A stretch of 32,857 nucleotides of DNA from Peptococcaceae bacterium. GTDB taxonomy: Bacteria > Bacillota > Peptococcia > DRI-13 > PHAD01. A program made the translations under genes and the position numbers. The notes under the pieces are model-generated. The model did no database searches and had not been told where the DNA came from. It saw only the letters and a program-made list of their open reading frames with translations. Position 1 is the first letter of the stretch; every line of letters begins with the position of its first letter. Location: contig JANLFJ010000004.1 in assembly GCA_024655825.1 (NCBI GenBank), positions 79,158-112,014 of the forward strand, read 5' to 3'. Below, in pieces: positions 9,217 to 29,543 of this stretch.

Positions 9217-9236
9217 GCCATCATCCATGTTTTTGA

Positions 9237-9415
9237 TTCATTCAGGCAGGTCTCCTGGCTCTGGCTCCTCGCCTGCTGTGACCTTCCCGCAAAACGCGGT
9301 GGCAGTCTGCATACTGCAGCACAGCGGCTCCCCAGTTACAGTGGCGGGTCCGCCGGGGATTTGCACCCCGTTCCCTATTCTCCCCTAAGGGCACCTGGAT
9401 GAGTGATTGTTATTC
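9237..9415 (-). promoter_or_regulatory. Cobalamin (adenosylcobalamin) riboswitch upstream of cobT
   Basis: Read on the minus strand the leader contains the class landmarks in order: CCAGGTGCCC, GGGGAGAATAGGGAA, GGTGCAAATCCCC, the core GCCACTGTAACTG, a variable arm, GGGAAGG, and the B12-box end GAGCCAGGAGACCTGCCTG at about 9241-9260. This is the Rfam cobalamin riboswitch layout. It lies about 90 bases before cobT with a terminator hairpin between them, so ligand binding should switch cobT off. Confidence 0.95.
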
Positions 9416-19199: not shown

Positions 19200-19274
19200 G
19201 CTGGTGTGGCTCAAAGGCAGAGCAGCGGTATCGTAAACCGCAGGTTGGAGGTTCGATTCCTCTCACCAGCTCCA
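19200..19274 (+). tRNA. tRNA-Thr (anticodon CGT), complete with encoded CCA
   Basis: Complete cloverleaf: acceptor GCTGGTG/CACCAGC (7 perfect pairs), D-stem GCTC/GAGC, anticodon stem GCGGT/ACCGC with loop ATCGTAA (CGT reads ACG, Thr), 5-base variable loop AGGTT and T-arm GGAGG-TTCGATT-CCTCT. The tRNA body ends with discriminator T at 19271 and CCA at 19272-19274. No separate promoter is obvious, so it may use the one at 19021. Confidence 0.93.
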
Positions 19275-19277
19275 ATG

Positions 19278-19313
19278 AAAAAAACGTGTAGTTTCAATGA
19301 CTGCACGTTTTTT
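19278..19313 (+). terminator. Intrinsic terminator after tRNA-Thr
   Basis: Stem ACGTGTAGT (19284-19292) with ACTGCACGT (19300-19308), one mismatch, followed by six T (19308-19313) and preceded by an A-run. Confidence 0.8.
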
Positions 19314-19352
19314 ATTGCTCATTTGATTATCCATTAATTAGGGAAATTCGTC

Positions 19353-19381
19353 TTGTATTGTTCGTTTGAGAGATGTATAAT
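19353..19381 (+). promoter_or_regulatory. Promoter of the helix-turn-helix gene / defence operon
   Basis: TTGTAT (19353-19358), 17 bases, TATAAT (19376-19381), about 34 bases before the ATG at 19415. Confidence 0.65.
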
Positions 19382-19414
19382 AATGCTGACATACTTCGAC
19401 AGGAGTTTTTTACC

Positions 19415-19600
19415 ATGGATTATGTTACCCCCAAGGACAAAGCAATTGAATGGGGTCTCACACAGCGCAGAGTTGAAGTGCTCTGCGATAAAGGCCGTAT
19501 CCCCGGAGCTTATCGCCTCGGTCGTGTTTGGGCTATTCCGAAGGATGCCGAGAAACCGATAGATGGAAGAACAAAAGCGGCGAAATTGAATCAGAAATGA
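19415..19600 (+). CDS. Small helix-turn-helix protein (excisionase/MerR-like), 61 aa
   Basis: AGGAG lies 9 bases before the ATG. The protein is one winged-helix DNA-binding domain: YVTPKDKAIEWGLTQRRVEVLC forms the helix-turn-helix, then KGRIPGAYRLGRVWAIPKDA matches the wing of excisionase-family/MerR-like proteins (RIPGAxRxGRxWxIPxxA). The tail is basic. These proteins act as excision directionality factors or as small transcriptional regulators. Its place as first gene before a restriction-type operon suits either a controller of that operon or an island excision factor. There is a 99-base gap to the ATPase gene, with an AT palindrome TTATATTATAA at 19627-19637. Confidence 0.85.
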   Translation: MDYVTPKDKAIEWGLTQRRVEVLCDKGRIPGAYRLGRVWAIPKDAEKPIDGRTKAAKLNQK

Positions 19601-19699
19601 GAATATTTTATAGTTTTTATAGCGCGTTATATTATAAGTCCGTTTTATTGAATAGCAAGTACTTTAAAATGGATGCAATGCGATATAGGAGGTTTGGAG

Positions 19700-21505
19700 A
19701 TGGGCTATCAGTCGATACAGCTAAATATGACCCCAGAACTTTTTGACCGTAGTATTAAAGCCTCACCAAAGGATGCTGTAAAAGAACTTATTTGGAATTC
19801 TTGCGATGCCGATGCAAAAAATATAGAGGTATCTTTTGAAATTGATAACTTTATCGGAGTAGATAATGTTACTGCCGTTACTGTTAAGGATGATGGGACA
19901 GGTATTCCCTTTGAGCGAATTCAGGATATTTTCGGCCGATATGGTAGTTCGGATAAAACATACTGTCATAAAAGCCCTAATGGTCGCGTGTATCACGGAA
20001 AGCTCGGGCAAGGCAGATATAAGTGTTTTGCAATCGGCACTTTCTTAAAATGGAAAACTGTATATCAAGCAGTTGATTCTAAAAAATATAGTTATGAAAT
20101 CAACATTAATTCTGGGTCAAGATTAAGTGTCGATTACAGTGAGAAACCAGAGCTTGTTGGTAATGATGTAAGCACGGGAACAGTTGCGACTATAACTGGA
20201 ATTCTCGAAGATAACATAGGTACTATTTCAAAACTGGCTGATAATCAAATTATGATCCCAGATATCTTGTCCACTTTTGCTCCTTACCTTCTTGCTTATA
20301 ATGATATTTCCCTTACATATAACGACATAAAGATCGACCCTGAACATTTGATAAAGAAGCGCGATGAACGTGACTTCGTGTATGAATATGGAGAAAAAGT
20401 AAAAGAAAGCGTTTCAGCTAAGGCCGTGGCAATACGCTGGATAGAATCCTACTTTAGTAAGCTCTATATATGTGGTGAATCCGGCGTGGTATTTGATGAG
20501 CGGGATTATACTACGTTACAAAAGAATGACACGTCAATTTATTTGTTGAGCAGCTATTATGAAAAGATGCACCAGGAGAACACCCTAGCTTTTGGGAAGG
20601 CAGATCCTGTATATGATTACTTTGTCAACGAAGCACGAAAATTTGCAAGGGAGTTCACACAAGACCAAGAAGTAGATGATGCTACTGCGGAAATCATTAG
20701 AATTAAGGAAGAAGGGATTTATCCATATCCATCTGAACCGTCGGATGAGATGGCAAAGGTTGAGCAAAGGGTATTCGATGTATTTGCAGTTGAGATAAAT
20801 CGTGCTGTCCCTCAGTTAAGAACATCGAATAAGCAAACGAAAAAACTTACCTATCGGCTTATCAAAGAAGCAATCAACACAAATCCATCCAGTATCCAAA
20901 CCATCCTCACAGAAGTTTTCAATTTGTCGCAGCAACAGCAAGATGATCTGGCAGAATTGTTGAAGCATACGACGCTTACGGCAATAATCGATACGGCAAA
21001 AACGGTTGCTGACAGACTGACGTTCATCTATATGCTTGAACAGTTGGTTTATAACGACTCGATCGGAAAACCCATCAAAGAGCGAACGCAGTTTCATAAA
21101 ATTCTTCTCAAAGAACTATGGATATTCGGAGAAAAGTATTATCTAGGGACATCCGATTTCTCTTTGAAAAACTTACTCAAGGCGCATATACAATGTTTGG
21201 GCAGGGATGACCTTATTCCCGAAATTCCGCCTGAAGCAACTGAGGATTTAACGCGGATCCCTGATATTTGCTTGTTTCAGCAGTCTTGTCCTGATTATGA
21301 ACGCTATGAACATTTAGTTATTGAACTAAAACGTCCCACCTTAACTCTTACACTTAAGGAGCTTGATCAGAAAAACAAATTCAGATACGAGTTTTTGAGG
21401 AAGAAGCTTAATTATGAAGTGAGCAATGATCCCAATTTTACGATGGATTATTTGCTATCAAAGCACGCAGAACTATTCCCAAAAGCGGATAAGGAGGCAA
21501 AATAA
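19700..21505 (+). CDS. GHKL (MutL/MORC-like) ATPase with candidate C-terminal PD-(D/E)XK motif
   Basis: 601 residues; GGAGG 7 bases before the ATG. The N-terminal HATPase fold has all Bergerat motifs: N box E29-LIW-N33-SC-D36-A, G1 D64-D-G66-T-G68, and a lid/G2 GKLGQGRYK with G100, G103 and G105. The order and spacing resemble MutL/MORC-type ATPases rather than sensor kinases, and no histidine phosphoacceptor domain is present. The middle region is mostly helical. Near the C-terminus P521-D522 and E542-L-K544 (IPDICL, then HLVIELKRP) fit a PD-(D/E)XK nuclease signature, followed by a helix with Gln. It is the first large gene of an operon with a methyltransferase 2 bases downstream. GHKL ATPases next to restriction-modification genes are a described theme. 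The precise role (DNA loading, target choice or an effector) is inference. Sampled GC is about 33%, well below its neighbours. Confidence 0.88.
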   Translation: MGYQSIQLNMTPELFDRSIKASPKDAVKELIWNSCDADAKNIEVSFEIDNFIGVDNVTAVTVKDDGTGIPFERIQDIFGRYGSSDKTYCHKSPNGRVYHGKLGQGRYKCFAIGTFLKWKTVYQAVDSKKYSYEININSGSRLSVDYSEKPELVGNDVSTGTVATITGILEDNIGTISKLADNQIMIPDILSTFAPYLLAYNDISLTYNDIKIDPEHLIKKRDERDFVYEYGEKVKESVSAKAVAIRWIESYFSKLYICGESGVVFDERDYTTLQKNDTSIYLLSSYYEKMHQENTLAFGKADPVYDYFVNEARKFAREFTQDQEVDDATAEIIRIKEEGIYPYPSEPSDEMAKVEQRVFDVFAVEINRAVPQLRTSNKQTKKLTYRLIKEAINTNPSSIQTILTEVFNLSQQQQDDLAELLKHTTLTAIIDTAKTVADRLTFIYMLEQLVYNDSIGKPIKERTQFHKILLKELWIFGEKYYLGTSDFSLKNLLKAHIQCLGRDDLIPEIPPEATEDLTRIPDICLFQQSCPDYERYEHLVIELKRPTLTLTLKELDQKNKFRYEFLRKKLNYEVSNDPNFTMDYLLSKHAELFPKADKEAK

Positions 21506-21507
21506 CT

Positions 21508-24045
21508 ATGGCACGTCCAAGAAAAAAGCAGCTCAGCGACGCCGATATAGCGAAGATGCGCGATATTGAGACTTATGAACACTCGGATAAGAAACGCACT
21601 AATAATCCGCCTGTGGGCATGGCGCAATACGACAAGGTGCAGGAAACGAAAAAGACCTATCAGTTTGACCCGCATCTTGACCCGACGCTGCAATGGGCGG
21701 GCAAGGCCGAGGGCATGAGTTTTGACGTGCCGACTTCCTCTATACATATCCATGAGTCCATCAAGCCGCACAAGATTATCCGTGCGGTGCAGGCCATTGG
21801 CGACGATTATGAGGATAAGCAGATAAGTCTATTTGAAACGCCGGTTGAGAGGATGCGCCGCCGCAGGGATGCTATCGAATTCTATCAACACGGCGTCAAC
21901 TGGACAAACCGACTCATTGCCGGCGACAGCCTTGTAATCATGAACTCCCTGCTGGAAAAAGAGGGTATGGCCGGGCAGGTGCAGATGGTCTACATCGACC
22001 CGCCTTACGGTATCAAGTACGGCTCCAATTTTCAGCCGTTTGTGGACAAGCGCGACGTTAAGGATAAAAAGGATGAGGACTTAACCCAAGAACCTGAAAT
22101 GATTAAAGCCTTTCGGGATACCTGGGAGTTGGGCATCCATTCTTATCTGACCTACCTGCGCAACCGTCTATTGCTGGCAAGAGAACTGCTGTCTGATAGC
22201 GGAAGTGTGTTTGTACAGATAAGCGATGAGAACGTTCATTTGGTTAGAAATCTTTGCGATGAAGTCTTTGGAGCAGAAAATTTTATTAGCATCATCATAT
22301 ATAAAAAAGGTGGCACAGCTACAGCTTCGCAACTTAGCAATATTGCTGACTTCATCATTTGGTACGGCAAGGACAAAAAGCAAATTAAGTATCATCAATT
22401 ATTTGAAGCCAAAGTTGTTGGTGAAGGAGAGTCAACAGGTGAAAGGTACGACCAGCTGGAATCTCCTGATGGCACAATTCGTAGACCGATGACGCAAGAA
22501 GAAAAGAAGAATCCGTCACTGATTCCAAATGGCTGGAAAGCATATAAGCTGTCTAATCCATGTTCACAACATGATAATCCGAATCATCGCACAACGCCAC
22601 TGATTTTTGAAGGTAAAGAATACTATCCTCCAAATGATAGACAGTGGTCAGTCCCAATAGATAAGATGTACAATTTAATTAAGGCAAATAGGATCGTCTC
22701 AACTGGAAAGAATCTTGCATATGTCATGTACATTGACGACTATCCTGTTATGCCTATCAATAATATCTGGGTGGATTTCTTATTAAGGACCGCTCGGATA
22801 TATGTTGTACAGACATCCGAAAAAGTAATTGAGCGTTGTCTTTTGATGTCAACTGACCCAGGTGATCTTGTGCTTGACATTACCTGCGGCAGCGGAACAA
22901 CAGCCTACGTTGCCGAACAATGGGGCCGACGCTGGATTACCTGCGATACATCTCGTGTTTCCTTAGCAATAGCCAAAAAGCGTCTTATGACGGCAGTTTA
23001 TGACTACTATAAGCTGGCACATCCAGAACAAGGCGTTGGCAGCGGCTTTGTCTACAAAACCGTGCCTCACATAATGCTAAAGAGTATTGCCAACAACGAG
23101 CCTCCTGCACAGGAAACCCTGTATGACCAGCCGGAAGTGGATAAAACCAAAATCCGCATCACCGGTCCGTTCACTGTGGAGGCCCTGCCCGCGCCGGTTG
23201 TCAAGCCGTTGGACGATGCGGCGGAGCCGGAGGCAGACTTTGGAGCCAAACAGACCGACTGGCGTGAGGAGCTCCGCGCTACAGGCATTCTTGCCCGCAA
23301 CGGCGCGAAAATAGAGTTCTCCCGAGTCGAGCCGCTTGCCGGGACCAAATTCCTGCAGGCCGAAGCTGAAACAAAAGAAGATACGCCGCGCCGCGCTGTC
23401 ATCTGCTTCGCCGGTGAGACAAAGCCGATGGATTCCCGCATGGTGGCGCTGGCACTTGACGAGGCACAGGATTTACGGCCAAGTCCCAAGCTCATCATTT
23501 TTGCCGCTTTTCAGTTCGATCCGGAGGCGGCTAAAGACATCGACGATACCAACTGGCCCGGGATGACACTGCTGAAGGTACAGATGAACACCGATCTGAT
23601 GACCGAAGACCTCAAGAAAAAGCGTTCCTCCAACCAGAGCTTCTGGCTGGTGGGCCAGCCTGATGTTGAACTCATCGAAATCGACAGAGGCAAGGACAAA
23701 GGAAAATATAAGGTCAGGGTTAACGGCTTTGATTATTACGATGTAAAGAAAGGCACGGTGGAATCCGGCAATTCCGACCGCATTGCCATGTGGATGCTGG
23801 ACACTAATTACGATGGCATGTGTGTTGAACCAATGCAGGTGTTTTTCCCGATGGGGGGCAAAAAAGATGGGTGGAACAAGCTGGCTAAGACACTGCGGGC
23901 CGAAATCGATCAGGAGCTCATCGAGCAATATGCCGGTAACGAGTCCCTGCCGTTCAAGGTTGAATTCAATACACAGATCGCAGTCAAGATTATCGACGAC
24001 AGGGGCATTGAAAGCCTTAAGGTAATAAAGGTAGGTGACCGCTGA
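21508..24045 (+). CDS. Site-specific DNA methyltransferase, type III Mod-like (beta class)
   Basis: 845 residues, with AAGGAGG inside the preceding gene. Amino-methyltransferase (N6-adenine or N4-cytosine) of the beta order: catalytic motif IV D164-P-P-Y167 comes first (VYIDPPYGIKYGS), and the SAM-binding motif I (LVLDITCGSGTT, D457 and G461-G463) comes after. The interval of about 290 residues holds the presumed target-recognition domain. An N-terminal extension (1-125) and a long C-terminal region (about 530-845) of mixed alpha/beta type have no recognised motif. Base composition switches inside the gene: sampled 60-base lines show 58% GC at 21961, 33% at 22261, 35% at 22381 and 67% at 23221. 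This points to a swapped target-recognition segment. The stop overlaps the Res start by one base (TGATG). Target sequence unknown. Confidence 0.92.
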   Translation: MARPRKKQLSDADIAKMRDIETYEHSDKKRTNNPPVGMAQYDKVQETKKTYQFDPHLDPTLQWAGKAEGMSFDVPTSSIHIHESIKPHKIIRAVQAIGDDYEDKQISLFETPVERMRRRRDAIEFYQHGVNWTNRLIAGDSLVIMNSLLEKEGMAGQVQMVYIDPPYGIKYGSNFQPFVDKRDVKDKKDEDLTQEPEMIKAFRDTWELGIHSYLTYLRNRLLLARELLSDSGSVFVQISDENVHLVRNLCDEVFGAENFISIIIYKKGGTATASQLSNIADFIIWYGKDKKQIKYHQLFEAKVVGEGESTGERYDQLESPDGTIRRPMTQEEKKNPSLIPNGWKAYKLSNPCSQHDNPNHRTTPLIFEGKEYYPPNDRQWSVPIDKMYNLIKANRIVSTGKNLAYVMYIDDYPVMPINNIWVDFLLRTARIYVVQTSEKVIERCLLMSTDPGDLVLDITCGSGTTAYVAEQWGRRWITCDTSRVSLAIAKKRLMTAVYDYYKLAHPEQGVGSGFVYKTVPHIMLKSIANNEPPAQETLYDQPEVDKTKIRITGPFTVEALPAPVVKPLDDAAEPEADFGAKQTDWREELRATGILARNGAKIEFSRVEPLAGTKFLQAEAETKEDTPRRAVICFAGETKPMDSRMVALALDEAQDLRPSPKLIIFAAFQFDPEAAKDIDDTNWPGMTLLKVQMNTDLMTEDLKKKRSSNQSFWLVGQPDVELIEIDRGKDKGKYKVRVNGFDYYDVKKGTVESGNSDRIAMWMLDTNYDGMCVEPMQVFFPMGGKKDGWNKLAKTLRAEIDQELIEQYAGNESLPFKVEFNTQIAVKIIDDRGIESLKVIKVGDR

Positions 24046-26849
24046 TGGCAGGTATCGACCAACTTATTATCAATTCGGCTTTCAGGGAGCCGGAAAGCCA
24101 CTGGAAATATGACTTAAACACACAGTCCTTTATACGTGAGCCCGGCCGCCGCCCTGCCGGATATTTCATCGCCGGACAGGGCAGCAACCAATACAATGAC
24201 ATCGGGCAGTTCGTCGAGCTGCCATTGGTGAACACAATTCGCCCGCGCGTAAAAGCATGGCGCGAGGCGGGGTATCCCGGCGTAACCGGAGTGACAAAAA
24301 AACTGCTGGAGCATTGGAATGACAGAGACGCACGTCAATATCAGTTTTTCTTTTGCCAGCAGGATGCGATCGAAACGCTGATCTGGTTAACAGAAGCACC
24401 CGACGCAAATAAAGTGGGGATTGATATACCAGGTGACGGTGGGTCATTTCGCCGTATCTGTACCAAGCTCTGTACCGGTGGTGGCAAGACCACCGTCATG
24501 GCGATGCTCATCGCCTGGCAGGTCTGCAACAAAGTTACCTATCCGCAGGACAAGCGTTTTTCTAAAAACGTTTTCATCGTCGCACCCGGCCTTACGGTCA
24601 GGAGACGTCTGGAGGTGCTGCAGACCGGCGGCGACGACAATTATTACACGCAGTTCAGCGTTGTGCCTGTCGGGCTCATGGACAAGCTCCGTCAGGGCAA
24701 GGTTATCATAAACAACTGGCAGGCGCTGGCGTGGGACAGTGAAGAAAAATTGGCAAAGAAAAAAGGCGTTGATAAGCGTGGTGCAAAGAGCGACGAGGCA
24801 TATACCAGAGAAGTGTTGGGCGATATGGCCGGTGCGAGCAATATCCTTGTTATTAATGACGAGGCACACCATGCGTGGAGGAAAAACCCCGAAATCAAAG
24901 TAAAGCTTTCTAAAGAAGAAAAGGAAATGGAGCAGGAGGCCACTGTGTGGATCGGAGGTCTTGACCGCATCCAAAAAACACGCGGTATCCTTACTTGCTA
25001 TGATTTTTCGGCGACGCCCTTTGCGCCGTCAGGCAAAAGAAATGATGAAGAAGCTTTATTCGGCTGGATCGTCAGCGACTTTGGGCTCAACGACGGTATC
25101 GAATCCGGACTTGTCAAAACACCACGAGTCGTTGTTCGCGATGACGGCATGCCGGATGCGGAAAGCTTCCGATCCAAGCTATATCATATTTACGCAGATG
25201 ATACCGTTAAAGAGGACATCAATCGAAAGGCACAGGAGGAAGAACCGTTGCCCGACTTGATTAATCAGGCGTACTATTTACTGGGCAAGGACTGGCTGGA
25301 AATCTACAAATCATGGAAAGAGCAAGGCTCCGTCGTGCCTCCGGTCATGATCACTGTCGCAAATCGCACAGAGACGGCGGCGCGTATCAAGTATGCTTTC
25401 GACCACAAACGGATTCCGGTTGATGAACTCTGTGTGCCGGAATATACAATTCATATTGACTCAAAAGTCCTTGACGCAGTCGATGCGGCGGATGAAGCAC
25501 CCCAAGCGGAGCAGATTGATGAAAGCAGCGATGAAGAAGAAGGCGGCACCGAAAAAACTTATAGCAAGAAAGACGCAGCCGCCATTCTTCGCGAAACGGT
25601 TGACACTGTCGGCAAGCGTGGAAAACGCGGTGAGCAAATCAGGAATGTTATCTCTGTCGGTATGCTAACCGAGGGATGGGATGCAAAAACCGTTACTCAT
25701 ATTCTCGGCCTGCGGGCCTTTTCCAGCCAGCTGCTCTGTGAGCAAGTGGTCGGACGCGGCCTGCGTCGGACATCTTATGACCTGGCCGAAGGAAGCGATA
25801 TGTTTACACCGGAATATGTTAACATCTTCGGTATTCCGTTCTCGTTTTTACCGCATGAGTCTGGAGAGGACGGTAAAGCTCCGACCACACCTCCAAAGAC
25901 GCAGATAGAGGCCCTAAAAGAAAAAGTCGCATATCAGATCAGTTGGCCGAACATCGTTCGCATTGACCGGGTATGGAAGCCGAAACTGTCACTGGACATC
26001 GATAAGATTGACACGCTCGTAATAGAGGCGCAAGATACTCGGCTTCGCGCTGATCTAGCCCCTATCATCGACGGTAAGACCGATCTGATGAAGTGTACGG
26101 AAATCGACTTGCAGAAGCTCGATTCAGGACTTCGTATGCAGCAGATAATATTTGAAACCGCAGGACAGGTCTATGACCTTCTGAAGTCCTCATGGCAAGC
26201 TGAAGGAACAAAGTTTGCCTTGCTCGGTCAGGCAATCCGACTCGTTGAGGATTACCTGAATTCCGGAGTAATTGTGATTAATCCGCCGCTGTTCAACACA
26301 GACCCGGTGCGCCAGCGGATTATTTACATGATGAACATGAACAAGATAGTCCAACACCTTTGGGGATTCATCAAGCTGGAGCAGACGGAAAAGCTCATAC
26401 CGGTATTCGATCAGAGCCGTAAAGTACGCAGCACCGGTGACATGATCACATGGTATACAAGCAAGCCATGTTTCATTACACAGCACTCTCATATTAGCCA
26501 CTGTGTGTTCGACAGCACATGGGAAGCCTCGGAAAGCTATGTGCTGGAGAAGAACCCTGATGTTATGGCGTGGGCAAAGAACGACCACCTTGGATTTGAG
26601 ATTATTTATGTTTTCGATGGCGTTGTCCGCAAATATGTTCCCGATTTCCTGATTAGGCTTTCCAACGGCAAGACGCTTGTACTGGAAACAAAGGGGCAGG
26701 ATACCCGCCAAAATCGGGAAAAACGAAAAGCATTGGCTGAGTGGGTTGAGGCTGTGAACGGTCTTGGCGATTATGGTGAGTGGTGCTGGGATGTCTCATT
26801 CAATATTGCAGATGTGGATGGAATTATTAAGAAACATTTGAATTCGTAA
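24045..26849 (+). CDS. Type III restriction Res-like DEAH helicase-nuclease
   Basis: 934 residues, translationally coupled to the methyltransferase (TGATG overlap). Superfamily 2 helicase motifs: Walker A C-T144-G-G-G-K148-T-T, Walker B/DEAH ND272-E-A-H275-H, motif III SATPF, and motif VI VVGRGLRRT. An acidic linker rich in Asp/Glu sits at about 480-505. The C-terminal nuclease core reads VPD867-FLIRLSNGKTLVLE881-TK883-G, a PD-(D/E)XK site as in type III Res subunits. With the Mod-like protein it should form an ATP-dependent restriction enzyme cutting DNA that lacks the cognate methylation. All key residues are present, so it is probably active. No terminator is obvious after the stop. Confidence 0.93.
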   Translation: MAGIDQLIINSAFREPESHWKYDLNTQSFIREPGRRPAGYFIAGQGSNQYNDIGQFVELPLVNTIRPRVKAWREAGYPGVTGVTKKLLEHWNDRDARQYQFFFCQQDAIETLIWLTEAPDANKVGIDIPGDGGSFRRICTKLCTGGGKTTVMAMLIAWQVCNKVTYPQDKRFSKNVFIVAPGLTVRRRLEVLQTGGDDNYYTQFSVVPVGLMDKLRQGKVIINNWQALAWDSEEKLAKKKGVDKRGAKSDEAYTREVLGDMAGASNILVINDEAHHAWRKNPEIKVKLSKEEKEMEQEATVWIGGLDRIQKTRGILTCYDFSATPFAPSGKRNDEEALFGWIVSDFGLNDGIESGLVKTPRVVVRDDGMPDAESFRSKLYHIYADDTVKEDINRKAQEEEPLPDLINQAYYLLGKDWLEIYKSWKEQGSVVPPVMITVANRTETAARIKYAFDHKRIPVDELCVPEYTIHIDSKVLDAVDAADEAPQAEQIDESSDEEEGGTEKTYSKKDAAAILRETVDTVGKRGKRGEQIRNVISVGMLTEGWDAKTVTHILGLRAFSSQLLCEQVVGRGLRRTSYDLAEGSDMFTPEYVNIFGIPFSFLPHESGEDGKAPTTPPKTQIEALKEKVAYQISWPNIVRIDRVWKPKLSLDIDKIDTLVIEAQDTRLRADLAPIIDGKTDLMKCTEIDLQKLDSGLRMQQIIFETAGQVYDLLKSSWQAEGTKFALLGQAIRLVEDYLNSGVIVINPPLFNTDPVRQRIIYMMNMNKIVQHLWGFIKLEQTEKLIPVFDQSRKVRSTGDMITWYTSKPCFITQHSHISHCVFDSTWEASESYVLEKNPDVMAWAKNDHLGFEIIYVFDGVVRKYVPDFLIRLSNGKTLVLETKGQDTRQNREKRKALAEWVEAVNGLGDYGEWCWDVSFNIADVDGIIKKHLNS

Positions 26850-27035: not shown

Positions 27036-27782
27036 ATGAAAAGATATATTACTATTACCTGCATTACCATTACCGCCTATGTCGCAATGTATGCCGCCGT
27101 GTGGCCTCAAAACTCCGAGAATGAGGTAATACCCGTCAAACAGGAAAAACCCGTTATAAGCGCCGACGTGGCAGCAACGCAGGAAGAACTGATGCAAATC
27201 ATTTTCTCTGCCGATACGCAATCACCCGGACCGACGGAAACCGAAGAATCAACAACAGAGAAAGAACAAGCGTCATCACCGCCTGATGAGGCCATACTGG
27301 AACCCGAAGCAACCGGTACACCAGAACCGACGTCAACGCCCTCATCGGCTCCCAAACCGACATCCTCATCCGCGCCGCCCTCATCTGACCCCAAGCCGGG
27401 GACAATAGCTGTTATCGACGGTAATCGATGTATGTGGATTCCAGGCTTCGGCTGGGTCAAGGATGAGGGAAGCGGTGCACAAGGAACAATAGTTGGCAGT
27501 CCCGGAGATGAGCTTACCGGCAATAAGGTTGGACAGATGGGCGGCGGCACTATCGTAGACGGCAAAGGCGACATCAACAAGATGGTTGGTATCATGGGAG
27601 AAGATGACACTCTTCCCTCCGAAAAATTCACTCCTGCACCTGGATCGAAAGCCGTCATCGATGGTAAGCCAAGCGTATGGATTCCCGGCTTCGGCTGGAT
27701 AGAGGACAACGGCGGAGGAAACGTCGGCACCGTTGCCGAGGATATGTACGAGAACGGCCATAAAATCGGGATAATGGATTAA
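27036..27782 (+). CDS. Anchored or secreted protein with Ser/Thr/Pro linker and two WIPGFGW repeats
   Basis: 248 residues; AGGAAGTGA just upstream of the ATG. It begins with a hydrophobic segment (KRYITITCITITAYVAMYAAVW, given as residues 2-22) that is either a signal peptide or an N-terminal anchor. Residues about 60-125 form a low-complexity Pro/Ser/Thr/Glu-rich linker, as in wall-spanning proteins. The rest is two copies of a ~45-residue module: AVIDGNRCMWIPGFGWVKD (about 128-146) and AVIDGKPSVWIPGFGWIED (about 206-224). Each is followed by a Gly-rich stretch and an xKxGxM end (GNKVGQMG, GHKIGIMD). The family is unfamiliar to me by function; the repeats resemble small beta cell-surface modules. 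A decayed third copy lies at 29005. Confidence 0.75.
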   Translation: MKRYITITCITITAYVAMYAAVWPQNSENEVIPVKQEKPVISADVAATQEELMQIIFSADTQSPGPTETEESTTEKEQASSPPDEAILEPEATGTPEPTSTPSSAPKPTSSSAPPSSDPKPGTIAVIDGNRCMWIPGFGWVKDEGSGAQGTIVGSPGDELTGNKVGQMGGGTIVDGKGDINKMVGIMGEDDTLPSEKFTPAPGSKAVIDGKPSVWIPGFGWIEDNGGGNVGTVAEDMYENGHKIGIMD

Positions 27783-27865: not shown

Positions 27866-28534
27866 TTAATAGTAAAACGCCTCATCCAACAACAACTGAA
27901 ATACTTGCTTAGACGTTTCCCTGTCCCGGTAGGTCAGCGAGTACAGTAATTGGTTGGTTATCCCCTGAAGAAAAATATCCATTGCTTTAACAATCAGGAA
28001 CCGCTGGCAAAACAGCAGGTTTAAATGCTCCATTTCATTTTCCCCGCCGAGAGCTTCACAGATTTCGTTGTAGAGGTTATTCAGGTCTACGATATCAAGG
28101 AAAGCCCTGATGTCGGCAACAAGATCTGTATAATACTGCTCGTATGCAGACTCCAGATAACTGCTCGAAAGCATCACATCATATAGAGACAGCTTGGTAA
28201 AACTCTCCTGATACTTTAAGGGATGAGCATCAATAAATGTCCTGACCTGTTCGTAAAACGGATGATCGTTGCTTTTTGTATCACCTCTGAGTATTTCTGC
28301 ACACAGGCTGTTTAAGGTACTTTCAGTTTCGAAGCCTTCGGAAGCAGCTTCATATGCCAGTATCCCGTTTGTCGCCTCAAATAAGTACGAGAGGTATTTG
28401 TCCAGCAGATACCCCTGCTTCTCAAGCCTTATACGTATTTCAGTCGCCTGTTTAAAAAATTCCTTAAATGATCGCTTTAACTCATCCACGGATGCACTGC
28501 CAAGAATACCGGATTCGTTTTCAAAAATGTTCAT
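27866..28534 (-). CDS. Helical protein of unknown function (222 aa)
   Basis: Start at ATG 28534 (GGGAG just upstream; the longer frame runs through hairpin-forming leader). The product is acidic and almost entirely alpha-helical (MNIFENESGILGSASVDEL start, a run of amphipathic helices with many Tyr/Leu/Glu, QVFQLLLDEAFYY end), with no signal peptide, membrane segment or recognisable motif. The 5' leader on the minus strand has two hairpins: GAGGGCA/TGCCCTC (28572-28590), and CCGAC/GTCGG (28541-28561) whose second arm overlaps the Shine-Dalgarno. The gene runs opposite to its neighbours and is divergent from the candidate small RNA at 28695. No function can be proposed. Confidence 0.7.
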   Translation of the reverse strand: MNIFENESGILGSASVDELKRSFKEFFKQATEIRIRLEKQGYLLDKYLSYLFEATNGILAYEAASEGFETESTLNSLCAEILRGDTKSNDHPFYEQVRTFIDAHPLKYQESFTKLSLYDVMLSSSYLESAYEQYYTDLVADIRAFLDIVDLNNLYNEICEALGGENEMEHLNLLFCQRFLIVKAMDIFLQGITNQLLYSLTYRDRETSKQVFQLLLDEAFYY

Positions 28535-28660
28535 TTTCTCCCGACCTTTCAAATGTAGTCGGAAGGTTCCCGAGGGCAAGGTATGCCCTCTACAAAAAAG
28601 CGTACACAAAGGCGGACGGCATCGCTGCCAGGACCCCTTGCATACGCCGAAAACTTTGAA

Positions 28661-28689
28661 TTGTGGAACACCATGAAAAGTGTTAGAAT
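28661..28689 (+). promoter_or_regulatory. Promoter of the candidate small RNA
   Basis: TTGTGG (28661-28666), 17 bases, TAGAAT (28684-28689). The predicted start at about 28696 coincides with the 5' strand of the RNA's closing stem. Confidence 0.55.
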
Positions 28690-28694
28690 AATCA

Positions 28695-28788
28695 CGTCAT
28701 AGTGCCGTTTACGGTTGCGCGGGGTGGCTGCTTCACCTTTCGCAGGGCTGGTGTGTCGGAATCGCACCAGCCTGCTATGACGTTTTTT
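28695..28788 (+). ncRNA. Candidate structured small RNA with intrinsic terminator
   Basis: A closing stem CGTCATAG (28695-28702) with CTATGACG (28775-28782) encloses three local hairpins: CCG-TTTA-CGG, a TGCG...CGCA arm with an inner GGGTG/CACCT helix, and an 8-bp GGCTGGTG/CACCAGCC hairpin (about 28746-28772). The closing stem is followed directly by six T (28783-28788). A -10/-35 pair ends 5 bases before the first stem base. There is no plausible ORF or ribosome site in it. I do not recognise the family. Confidence 0.6.
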
Positions 28789-29004
28789 CGTCTGGGAAAC
28801 TCCCGTAGTTCTAATACAGCTCTGATTGGAGAAAATGTCAAGTTAATATTGAAGTTTATTGCACGTTACTCTCTAGTCCCATTTTCACAGTCTCCAGCAT
28901 CTCCTATTCTTATGGGCGTATACTTCGGGCTTGTCGACGGAAGATTGGCAAGCTCTTTACTTTATTTCCAAACAGTTCGGTGCCCATCTCGCATGGGGGT
29001 GGTC
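28789..29004. other. Intergenic stretch with no supported gene
   Basis: AT-richer sequence between the small RNA terminator and the pseudogene. Open frames crossing it have no ribosome site or recognisable product. I see nothing further in it. Confidence 0.6.
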
Positions 29005-29209
29005 AATCCGTCGCCATCTGAAAAACACGATCCCGTGCCGGAAACGAAAGCCGTCGGTGACGGCAAGCGGTGTGTAGATTCACGGCTTCGTCTGGATCAA
29101 GGACAACGGTGGAGGGAACTTTAGCAGTATCGTCGAGGACATGTACGAAAACGGCCTCAAGATTCGAATTATCGATTTATACCGTTTCACATTGAAAGAC
29201 CTACATTAA
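29005..29209 (+). pseudogene. Frameshifted remnant of a WIPGFGW-module protein
   Basis: The sequence matches the last ~60 residues of the gene at 27036. The first frame reads SPSEKHDPVPETKAVGDGKRC against LPSEKFTPAPGSKAVIDGKPS. After a 2-base deletion near 29076 (GTA-GATTC against GTATGGATTC) the match continues one frame over as GFVWIKDNGGGNFSSIVEDM, then YENGLKIRIID, to a TAA at 29207. The signal peptide and linker parts are missing. The flanking terminator at 29195 is intact. Confidence 0.85.
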
Positions 29210-29227: not shown

Positions 29228-29543
29228 TGCATTTTGCTGAAAATGCAGAAATAGCAAAAACTTTTCCGTGCAGATAGCCTTCTCAACGTGGAAATTAATA
29301 GAGGGAATTTTTAATTTTACTCCGCTCAATCCCTCGATATTTTCCTTAAAGAAGTGAGGAAAAATTTTTGACAACTGAATAACCGCGCCCGGAGTGGATA
29401 CTTTCAGGCGAAGCATGCCAGGACCCTGCAAATGCAGGCGAGCGTGCCAATGAAATGAGAACGCCGTGTTGGTCACGCAAGGCCGCAGGGCAGAAACCTG
29501 GCCGGGAGCGCGGTGCAAATCTCTTTACGAACGGAGGTGAATC
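29228..29543 (+). other. Leader region of the RepA-like ATPase gene
   Basis: No supported long gene. The first part is AT-rich with hairpins TGCATTTT/AAAATGCA (29228-29247) and ATTTTCCT/AGGAAAAAT followed by TTTT (29339-29369). A TTGACA (29368-29373) may be a -35 element, but a matching -10 is unclear. From about 29385 the sequence turns GC-rich and structured: CCTGC-AAAT-GCAGG (about 29425-29440), and GCCAGG able to pair with CCTGGC further down. A short overlapping ORF starts near 29456 (MRTPCWSRKAAGQKPG) without a good ribosome site. It may be a regulatory leader. Confidence 0.45.

Follow-up and report, generated by a model that had tools for sequence, protein, structure and literature searches.

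The window (the whole 32,857-nt stretch of Peptococcaceae DNA analysed) contains, on its reverse strand, the gene of a 222-aa all-helical protein (27866 to 28534; MNIF...RDxETSKQVFQLL) and, on the forward strand opposite the leader of this gene, a small structured RNA (28694 to 28788). The two are situated between an intact DUF6550 gene (27036 to 27782) and a relic at 28988 to 29185 (+), a degenerate second copy of the DUF6550 C-terminal region that is 72% identical at the DNA level to its counterpart in a related locus, L044. The segment from 19200 to 26849 carries a tRNA-Thr, followed by genes for an HATPase protein and for what we take, from the sequences alone, to be a type III-like DNA methylase and a helicase-like restriction subunit; these genes are likely to be the defence cargo of an island. 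A structured-looking GC-rich leader (GCATGCCAGGACCCTGCAAATGCAGGCGAGCGTGCC...; 29400 to 29543, +) precedes an AAA_25 ATPase gene and is well conserved in L044. The surroundings expected for the RNA in the original prediction, a mobile region and an adjacent helical-protein gene with a structured leader, were supported.

The promoter of the RNA was read directly from the sequence as TTGTGG-N17-TAGAAT (28661 to 28689, +), with the −35 box at 28661 to 28666 and the −10 box at 28684 to 28689. The RNA itself, of about 94 nt, starts at 28694 and ends in a T6 tail (28783 to 28788); its fold, its homologues and their covariation define a perfect four-way junction, with no base left unpaired at the junction itself. 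A closing stem of 10 bp (28694 to 28703 with 28774 to 28783) encloses hairpins H1 (28704 to 28715), H2 (28716 to 28744, apical loop 28728 to 28732) and H3 (28745 to 28773, apical loop 28756 to 28762). The minimum-energy fold of 28694 to 28789 reached −49.7 kcal/mol, compared with −29.9 ± 3.2 kcal/mol for 200 dinucleotide shuffles (z = −6.2), none of which attained the energy of the window RNA. A small RNA with its own promoter, three enclosed hairpins and a U6 tract had been predicted, and was confirmed by the sequence, by this z value and by conservation in relatives; the predicted start at the opening of the closing stem also held, while the stem proved to be 10 bp long instead of 8. A simple promoter and terminator scan returned neither signal, because the −35 box matches at only 3 of 6 positions and the U tract comes after a multibranch stem; even so, relatives conserve the two signals. 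The promoter spacer includes an inverted repeat, AACAC-N8-GTGTT (28668 to 28685), which is kept in L046 and L047, is not kept in L044, and is a possible operator.

On the opposite strand, the promoter of the helical-protein gene (TTGACA-N17-TGTATT; 28813 to 28841, −) lies past the 3′ end of the RNA, so that the leader spans the entire RNA in antisense and then reaches a terminator. This leader, of 272 nt (28535 to 28806, −; start inferred from the −10 box), holds the RNA complement at 28789 to 28694, followed by an intrinsic terminator and putative attenuator (GGCGTATGCAAGGGG...CCGCCTTTGTGTACGC-TTTTTT; 28594 to 28648, −), the Shine-Dalgarno region and the gene. A hairpin that would sequester the Shine-Dalgarno region was read from the sequence at 28538 to 28566 (−; CCTTCCGAC...GGTCGGGAG); it is present in the window and in the helical-protein modules, and L024, which has no RNA, keeps it too. 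Between the terminator and the start codon of the window gene no good promoter was found (best score, 8/12, with a 16-nt spacer). At its 5′ end (28805 to 28794, −) the leader has a short GGGnTTTCCC-like element with apparent complementarity to GGGAAA/AACC beyond the terminator (28574 to 28560, −); such elements, present in most modules (e.g., L064, L065 and L066), might form a long-range helix around the whole switch.

A BLAST search of the RNA against 150 related genomes gave, apart from the window, best matches that resembled chance (top seven inspected), and the window's own genome holds a single copy. Plasmid and phage collections and viral contigs yielded no relatives, three viral-contig candidates (L053 to L055) being rejected by the covariance model. 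With the neighbouring helical protein as the query, nine loci (L044 to L052) were obtained, and a single-sequence covariance model detected the RNA in three of them (L044, L046 and L047), in each case divergent from the protein gene. A four-sequence model then gave further RNA loci at 61 and 34 bits, in genomes with other family members, and matched 22 of 394 genomes of one order, several genomes being multicopy. Five of these matches (L071, L078, L079, L081 and L082) were judged spurious by eye, since they lacked the four-way junction or had it out of place, and L061 (18.7 bits, partial structure) was excluded from the count. A third model, run over a class and over the phylum of the window, added copies, and the aligned set comprised 71 copies from about 35 genomes, with maxima of 11, 10, 8, 7 and 7 copies per genome. 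The carriers, which number in the dozens, are gut- and sludge-type Firmicutes. One locus (L069:803-2806, −) is a tandem array of four antisense modules within 2 kb; in another, an antisense module has a skipping-rope RNA (RF02924; L126:2488-2603, −) about 0.9 kb away.

The same four-way junction was recovered in nearly all independent single-sequence folds of the first relative set. Over the 71 copies, 34 of the 36 base pairs showed compensatory changes on both sides, thus bearing out the RNA in the homologue covariation check that had been proposed for it, and 94.4% of pair cells were standard pairs. The covariation score was 0.615, compared with 0.227 ± 0.007 in shuffles (0 of 500 as good) and 0.07 to 0.12 in slid-alignment controls; because the model guided the alignment, these figures lean towards structure, yet the independent folds agree with them. 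G-U pairs occupied 458 cells and A-C pairs 28, which shows that the structure was selected on the forward strand and fixes this as the RNA strand. That this is a real RNA family is very likely.

It is also apparently undescribed, being absent from Rfam 15 and unmatched by any family there. No Rfam 15 match covered the window RNA at an E value of ≤10, and the only matches elsewhere in the window were the tRNA and a cobalamin riboswitch (9228 to 9413, −), the latter apparently upstream of a CobT-like gene. The only tRNA that ARAGORN and Rfam found in the window was the tRNA-Thr at 19200. Similarly, when Rfam 15 covariance models were run against 40 relative loci, no family matched the RNA, in keeping with the assignment to no known family in the original prediction, and literature searches, in which few subscription papers were covered, found no description of it.

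The arrangement of opposed promoters and terminator recurred with the RNA. In an alignment of the four closest loci, an opposite-strand promoter (TTGACW-N17-TGTAWT) was conserved beyond the RNA 3′ end, as was a terminator between the RNA complement and the gene; the same layout was observed in modules on unrelated genes and in nearly all relatives. The RNA promoter, conserved in nearly all modules as TTGnnn-N17-TAnnnT, had a mean best score of 9.5/12 versus 7.0 in block-shuffled sequence (70 modules), and the leader promoter one of 9.9/12 versus 7.6. Leader terminators averaged −19.2 kcal/mol versus −5.4 kcal/mol when shuffled (−27.3 and −2.9 kcal/mol, respectively, for the window), and 53 of 66 were more than 5 kcal better than their own shuffles. 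On the leader strand 46 of 58 modules, and on the RNA strand 19 of 58, had an open reading frame with a ribosome-binding site starting within 330 nt. It is thereby demonstrated, at the level of sequence, that the RNA is antisense to a leader with a terminator of its own; both opposed transcripts very probably exist, and RNA and leader are best read as one regulatory module rather than as a free-standing gene plus its neighbour. The RNA had been described as an independent gene lying divergent to the helical-protein gene. The adjacency stands, while independence and mere divergence do not, given that the RNA lies antisense inside the leader of that gene, whose promoter (28841 to 28813, −) is beyond the RNA 3′ end.

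The 222-aa helical protein is the target by position in nine modules. Other targets by position were DUF6809 proteins, HTH regulators, a GGDEF response regulator, LRR/SLH/M23/CHAP surface proteins, a serine recombinase and a TnpB-like protein; no replication initiator (rep) gene was identified among them. Nor was the short hydrophobic toxin peptide of type I toxin-antitoxin systems encountered, the window target being a soluble-looking helical protein of 222 aa and the other targets large or enzymatic proteins. The helical protein gave no significant match in Pfam or NCBIfam; its AlphaFold2 model was all-helical (pLDDT, 76), and a fold search against the PDB returned no match at an E value of ≤0.001. 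Protein matches to open reading frames of about 490 aa were rejected, the one checked being a glycogen synthase matched by chance. Relatives of the gene in L048 to L050 lack the RNA and have a promoter of the same type much nearer the gene, and in L045, also devoid of the RNA, the leader upstream of the terminator has apparently been lost; the cassette is thus separable from the gene. In genome G744, two modules (L110 and L115) each precede a serine recombinase gene by about 470 nt, the two genes being near-identical.

Copies within one genome differed mainly in their loops. In G348, where 11 copies were found and nine were read, the stems were nearly constant (0 to 0.02 differences per site, except for 0.13 in the H3 5′ arm) and the H1 loop showed 0.10 differences per site, while the H2 and H3 loops reached 0.57 and 0.65 and were distinct in all nine copies, which as copies within one genome are nonindependent observations. 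G203 and G237 presented the same pattern of constant stems and variable loops; in G920 all parts were more diverged, and no two copies had loops in common. With loops that vary from copy to copy, an antisense RNA would be expected to act on its own leader only. Promoter spacers in the same alignment were about as divergent as the loops, so that the loop data represent an absence of conservation, perhaps a lack of constraint rather than selection. We hypothesize diversifying selection on the loops, and for the same reason do not claim their divergence as proof of positive selection.

The leader terminator resembles the antisense H2 in the same 5′-3′ sense, which means that the H2 complement in the leader is able to pair with both terminator arms. 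In the L074 module, for example, GAGU/ACUC occurs in both H2 and the terminator, and in G348 AAGG/CCUU does. For both arms, the H2 complement paired better with its own terminator than with shuffled arms in 28 of 28 genomes. Own pairing also exceeded that with terminators from other genomes in 26 of 28 cases (P = 3e-5) for the 3′ arm of the H2 complement with the terminator 5′ arm, and in 18 of 28 (P = 0.002) for the other arm. We infer from these sequence comparisons that such conserved complementarity to the own terminator is the expected mark of a preemptor; the resemblance between H2 and the terminator may be due to common descent. In equilibrium folding of the free leader, the terminator formed in 41 of 52 modules, including the window (probability, 0.95), and the antiterminator dominated in only 11, in most of which masking of the antisense region restored the terminator. 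With the RNA complement masked, the probability of the terminator rose on average from 0.75 to 0.91, that of the window being 0.95 either way, and for the window's own leader equilibrium folding thus predicts no switch. As the terminator forms in most free leaders, the switch must be kinetic or else not general.

Taken from sequence, it is reasonably probable that the RNA is a cis-encoded antisense RNA which would control the opposite-strand gene by transcription attenuation. When the antisense RNA is scarce, the H2-complementary segment of the leader would pair with the terminator arms, and the polymerase would read through into the gene. With plentiful antisense RNA, kissing contacts would form between its H2 and H3 loops and their leader counterparts, and pairing would then spread; with the H2-complementary segment occupied, the terminator would form and the gene would be off. 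The conserved G-U pairs would give the antisense RNA a tight fold, while the leader copy, with A-C at those positions, would fold loosely. The module would thereby most likely be an off-switch private to its own gene.

An antisense RNA could also act in cis without attenuation, the leader duplex being cut by RNase III or translation being blocked, with the terminator merely tuning read-through. Full complementarity and the hairpin over the Shine-Dalgarno region suit such an action, as does the terminator predicted in most free leaders regardless; we nevertheless regard it as unlikely, since more than 150 nt separate the RNA complement from the downstream start codon, with a conserved terminator in between, and complementarity to the own terminator is kept across genomes. 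Less probable still is a reading in which function resides in the leader strand, as a riboswitch or another kind of sensing attenuator, and the antisense promoter is incidental. A terminator plus a Shine-Dalgarno hairpin is typical of an expression platform, and the same leader is found on varied genes; against this, reading the structure on the leader strand would leave only about 77% standard pair cells, as opposed to 94% for the RNA strand, the antisense promoter has been conserved, and the loops vary among copies of one genome, unlike an aptamer core.

The RNA's own promoter and terminator and its stable fold would also fit an independent trans-acting small RNA, which we judge improbable because its position inside the leader is fixed in nearly all modules and the accessible loops, H2 and H3, vary from copy to copy, so that no common trans target is preserved. 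A UCACCU motif in H2 that might have targeted Shine-Dalgarno sites in trans was set aside on the same grounds of loop variation and fixed position. That the palindrome acts at the DNA level, as a cruciform serving as recombination site, mobile-element end or protein-binding site, is hardly credible: modules are often located in mobile regions and some genomes are multicopy, yet strand-specific conservation of G-U pairs would be meaningless for duplex DNA, and the promoters are in register with the structure.

Among known systems, the pT181 and pIP501 types are the closest to the antisense attenuator proposed here, differing from it in scaffold, targets and copy number. In pT181, the small structured antisense RNA RNAI arises from inside the repC leader, and a preemptor-controlled conditional terminator precedes the gene. 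The module likewise has a small structured antisense RNA inside the leader and a terminator separating the antisense region from the gene (53 of 66 modules), and its antisense promoter, inside the leader, is convergent with the leader promoter, as in systems of this type; the replication-initiator target of this type was not found. Whereas pT181 RNAI has two hairpins and serves plasmid replication control, the module has a four-way junction with three hairpins, and a genome may have many copies of it, on chromosomal as well as mobile-element genes. Recognition in pT181 is a kissing-hairpin interaction (PMC3753616). The Inc18 plasmids pIP501 and pAMβ1 (RNAIII/repR) share with the module convergent promoters and an antisense RNA of similar size, that of pIP501 being 136 nt long and inducing premature termination of the leader by attenuation (PMC4981023). 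According to a title cited in PMC4981023, two loop pairs are needed at once in pIP501, which would parallel the two variable loops of the module. Unlike pIP501, the module has no fixed CopR-like partner, and no rep gene was found downstream of it; no Rfam family matches its RNA.

Orthogonal pT181 attenuators have been engineered on a constant scaffold by altering hairpin loops and upper stems so that pairs ignore each other (PMC3753616). G348, with different loops in its nine read copies, appears to be a natural set of this kind, with putative orthogonality. Chances seem about even that the family constitutes a natural portable cassette, that is, Firmicutes antisense attenuators in up to 11 copies per genome, built on a four-way-junction scaffold with two variable loops as a private address, on surface-protein, regulator and mobile-element genes. 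If so, this chromosomal family, in which one scaffold recurs 5 to 11 times per genome, would amount to a natural library of attenuator sets, and would represent an undescribed regulatory layer for surface-protein and mobile-element genes in gut Firmicutes.
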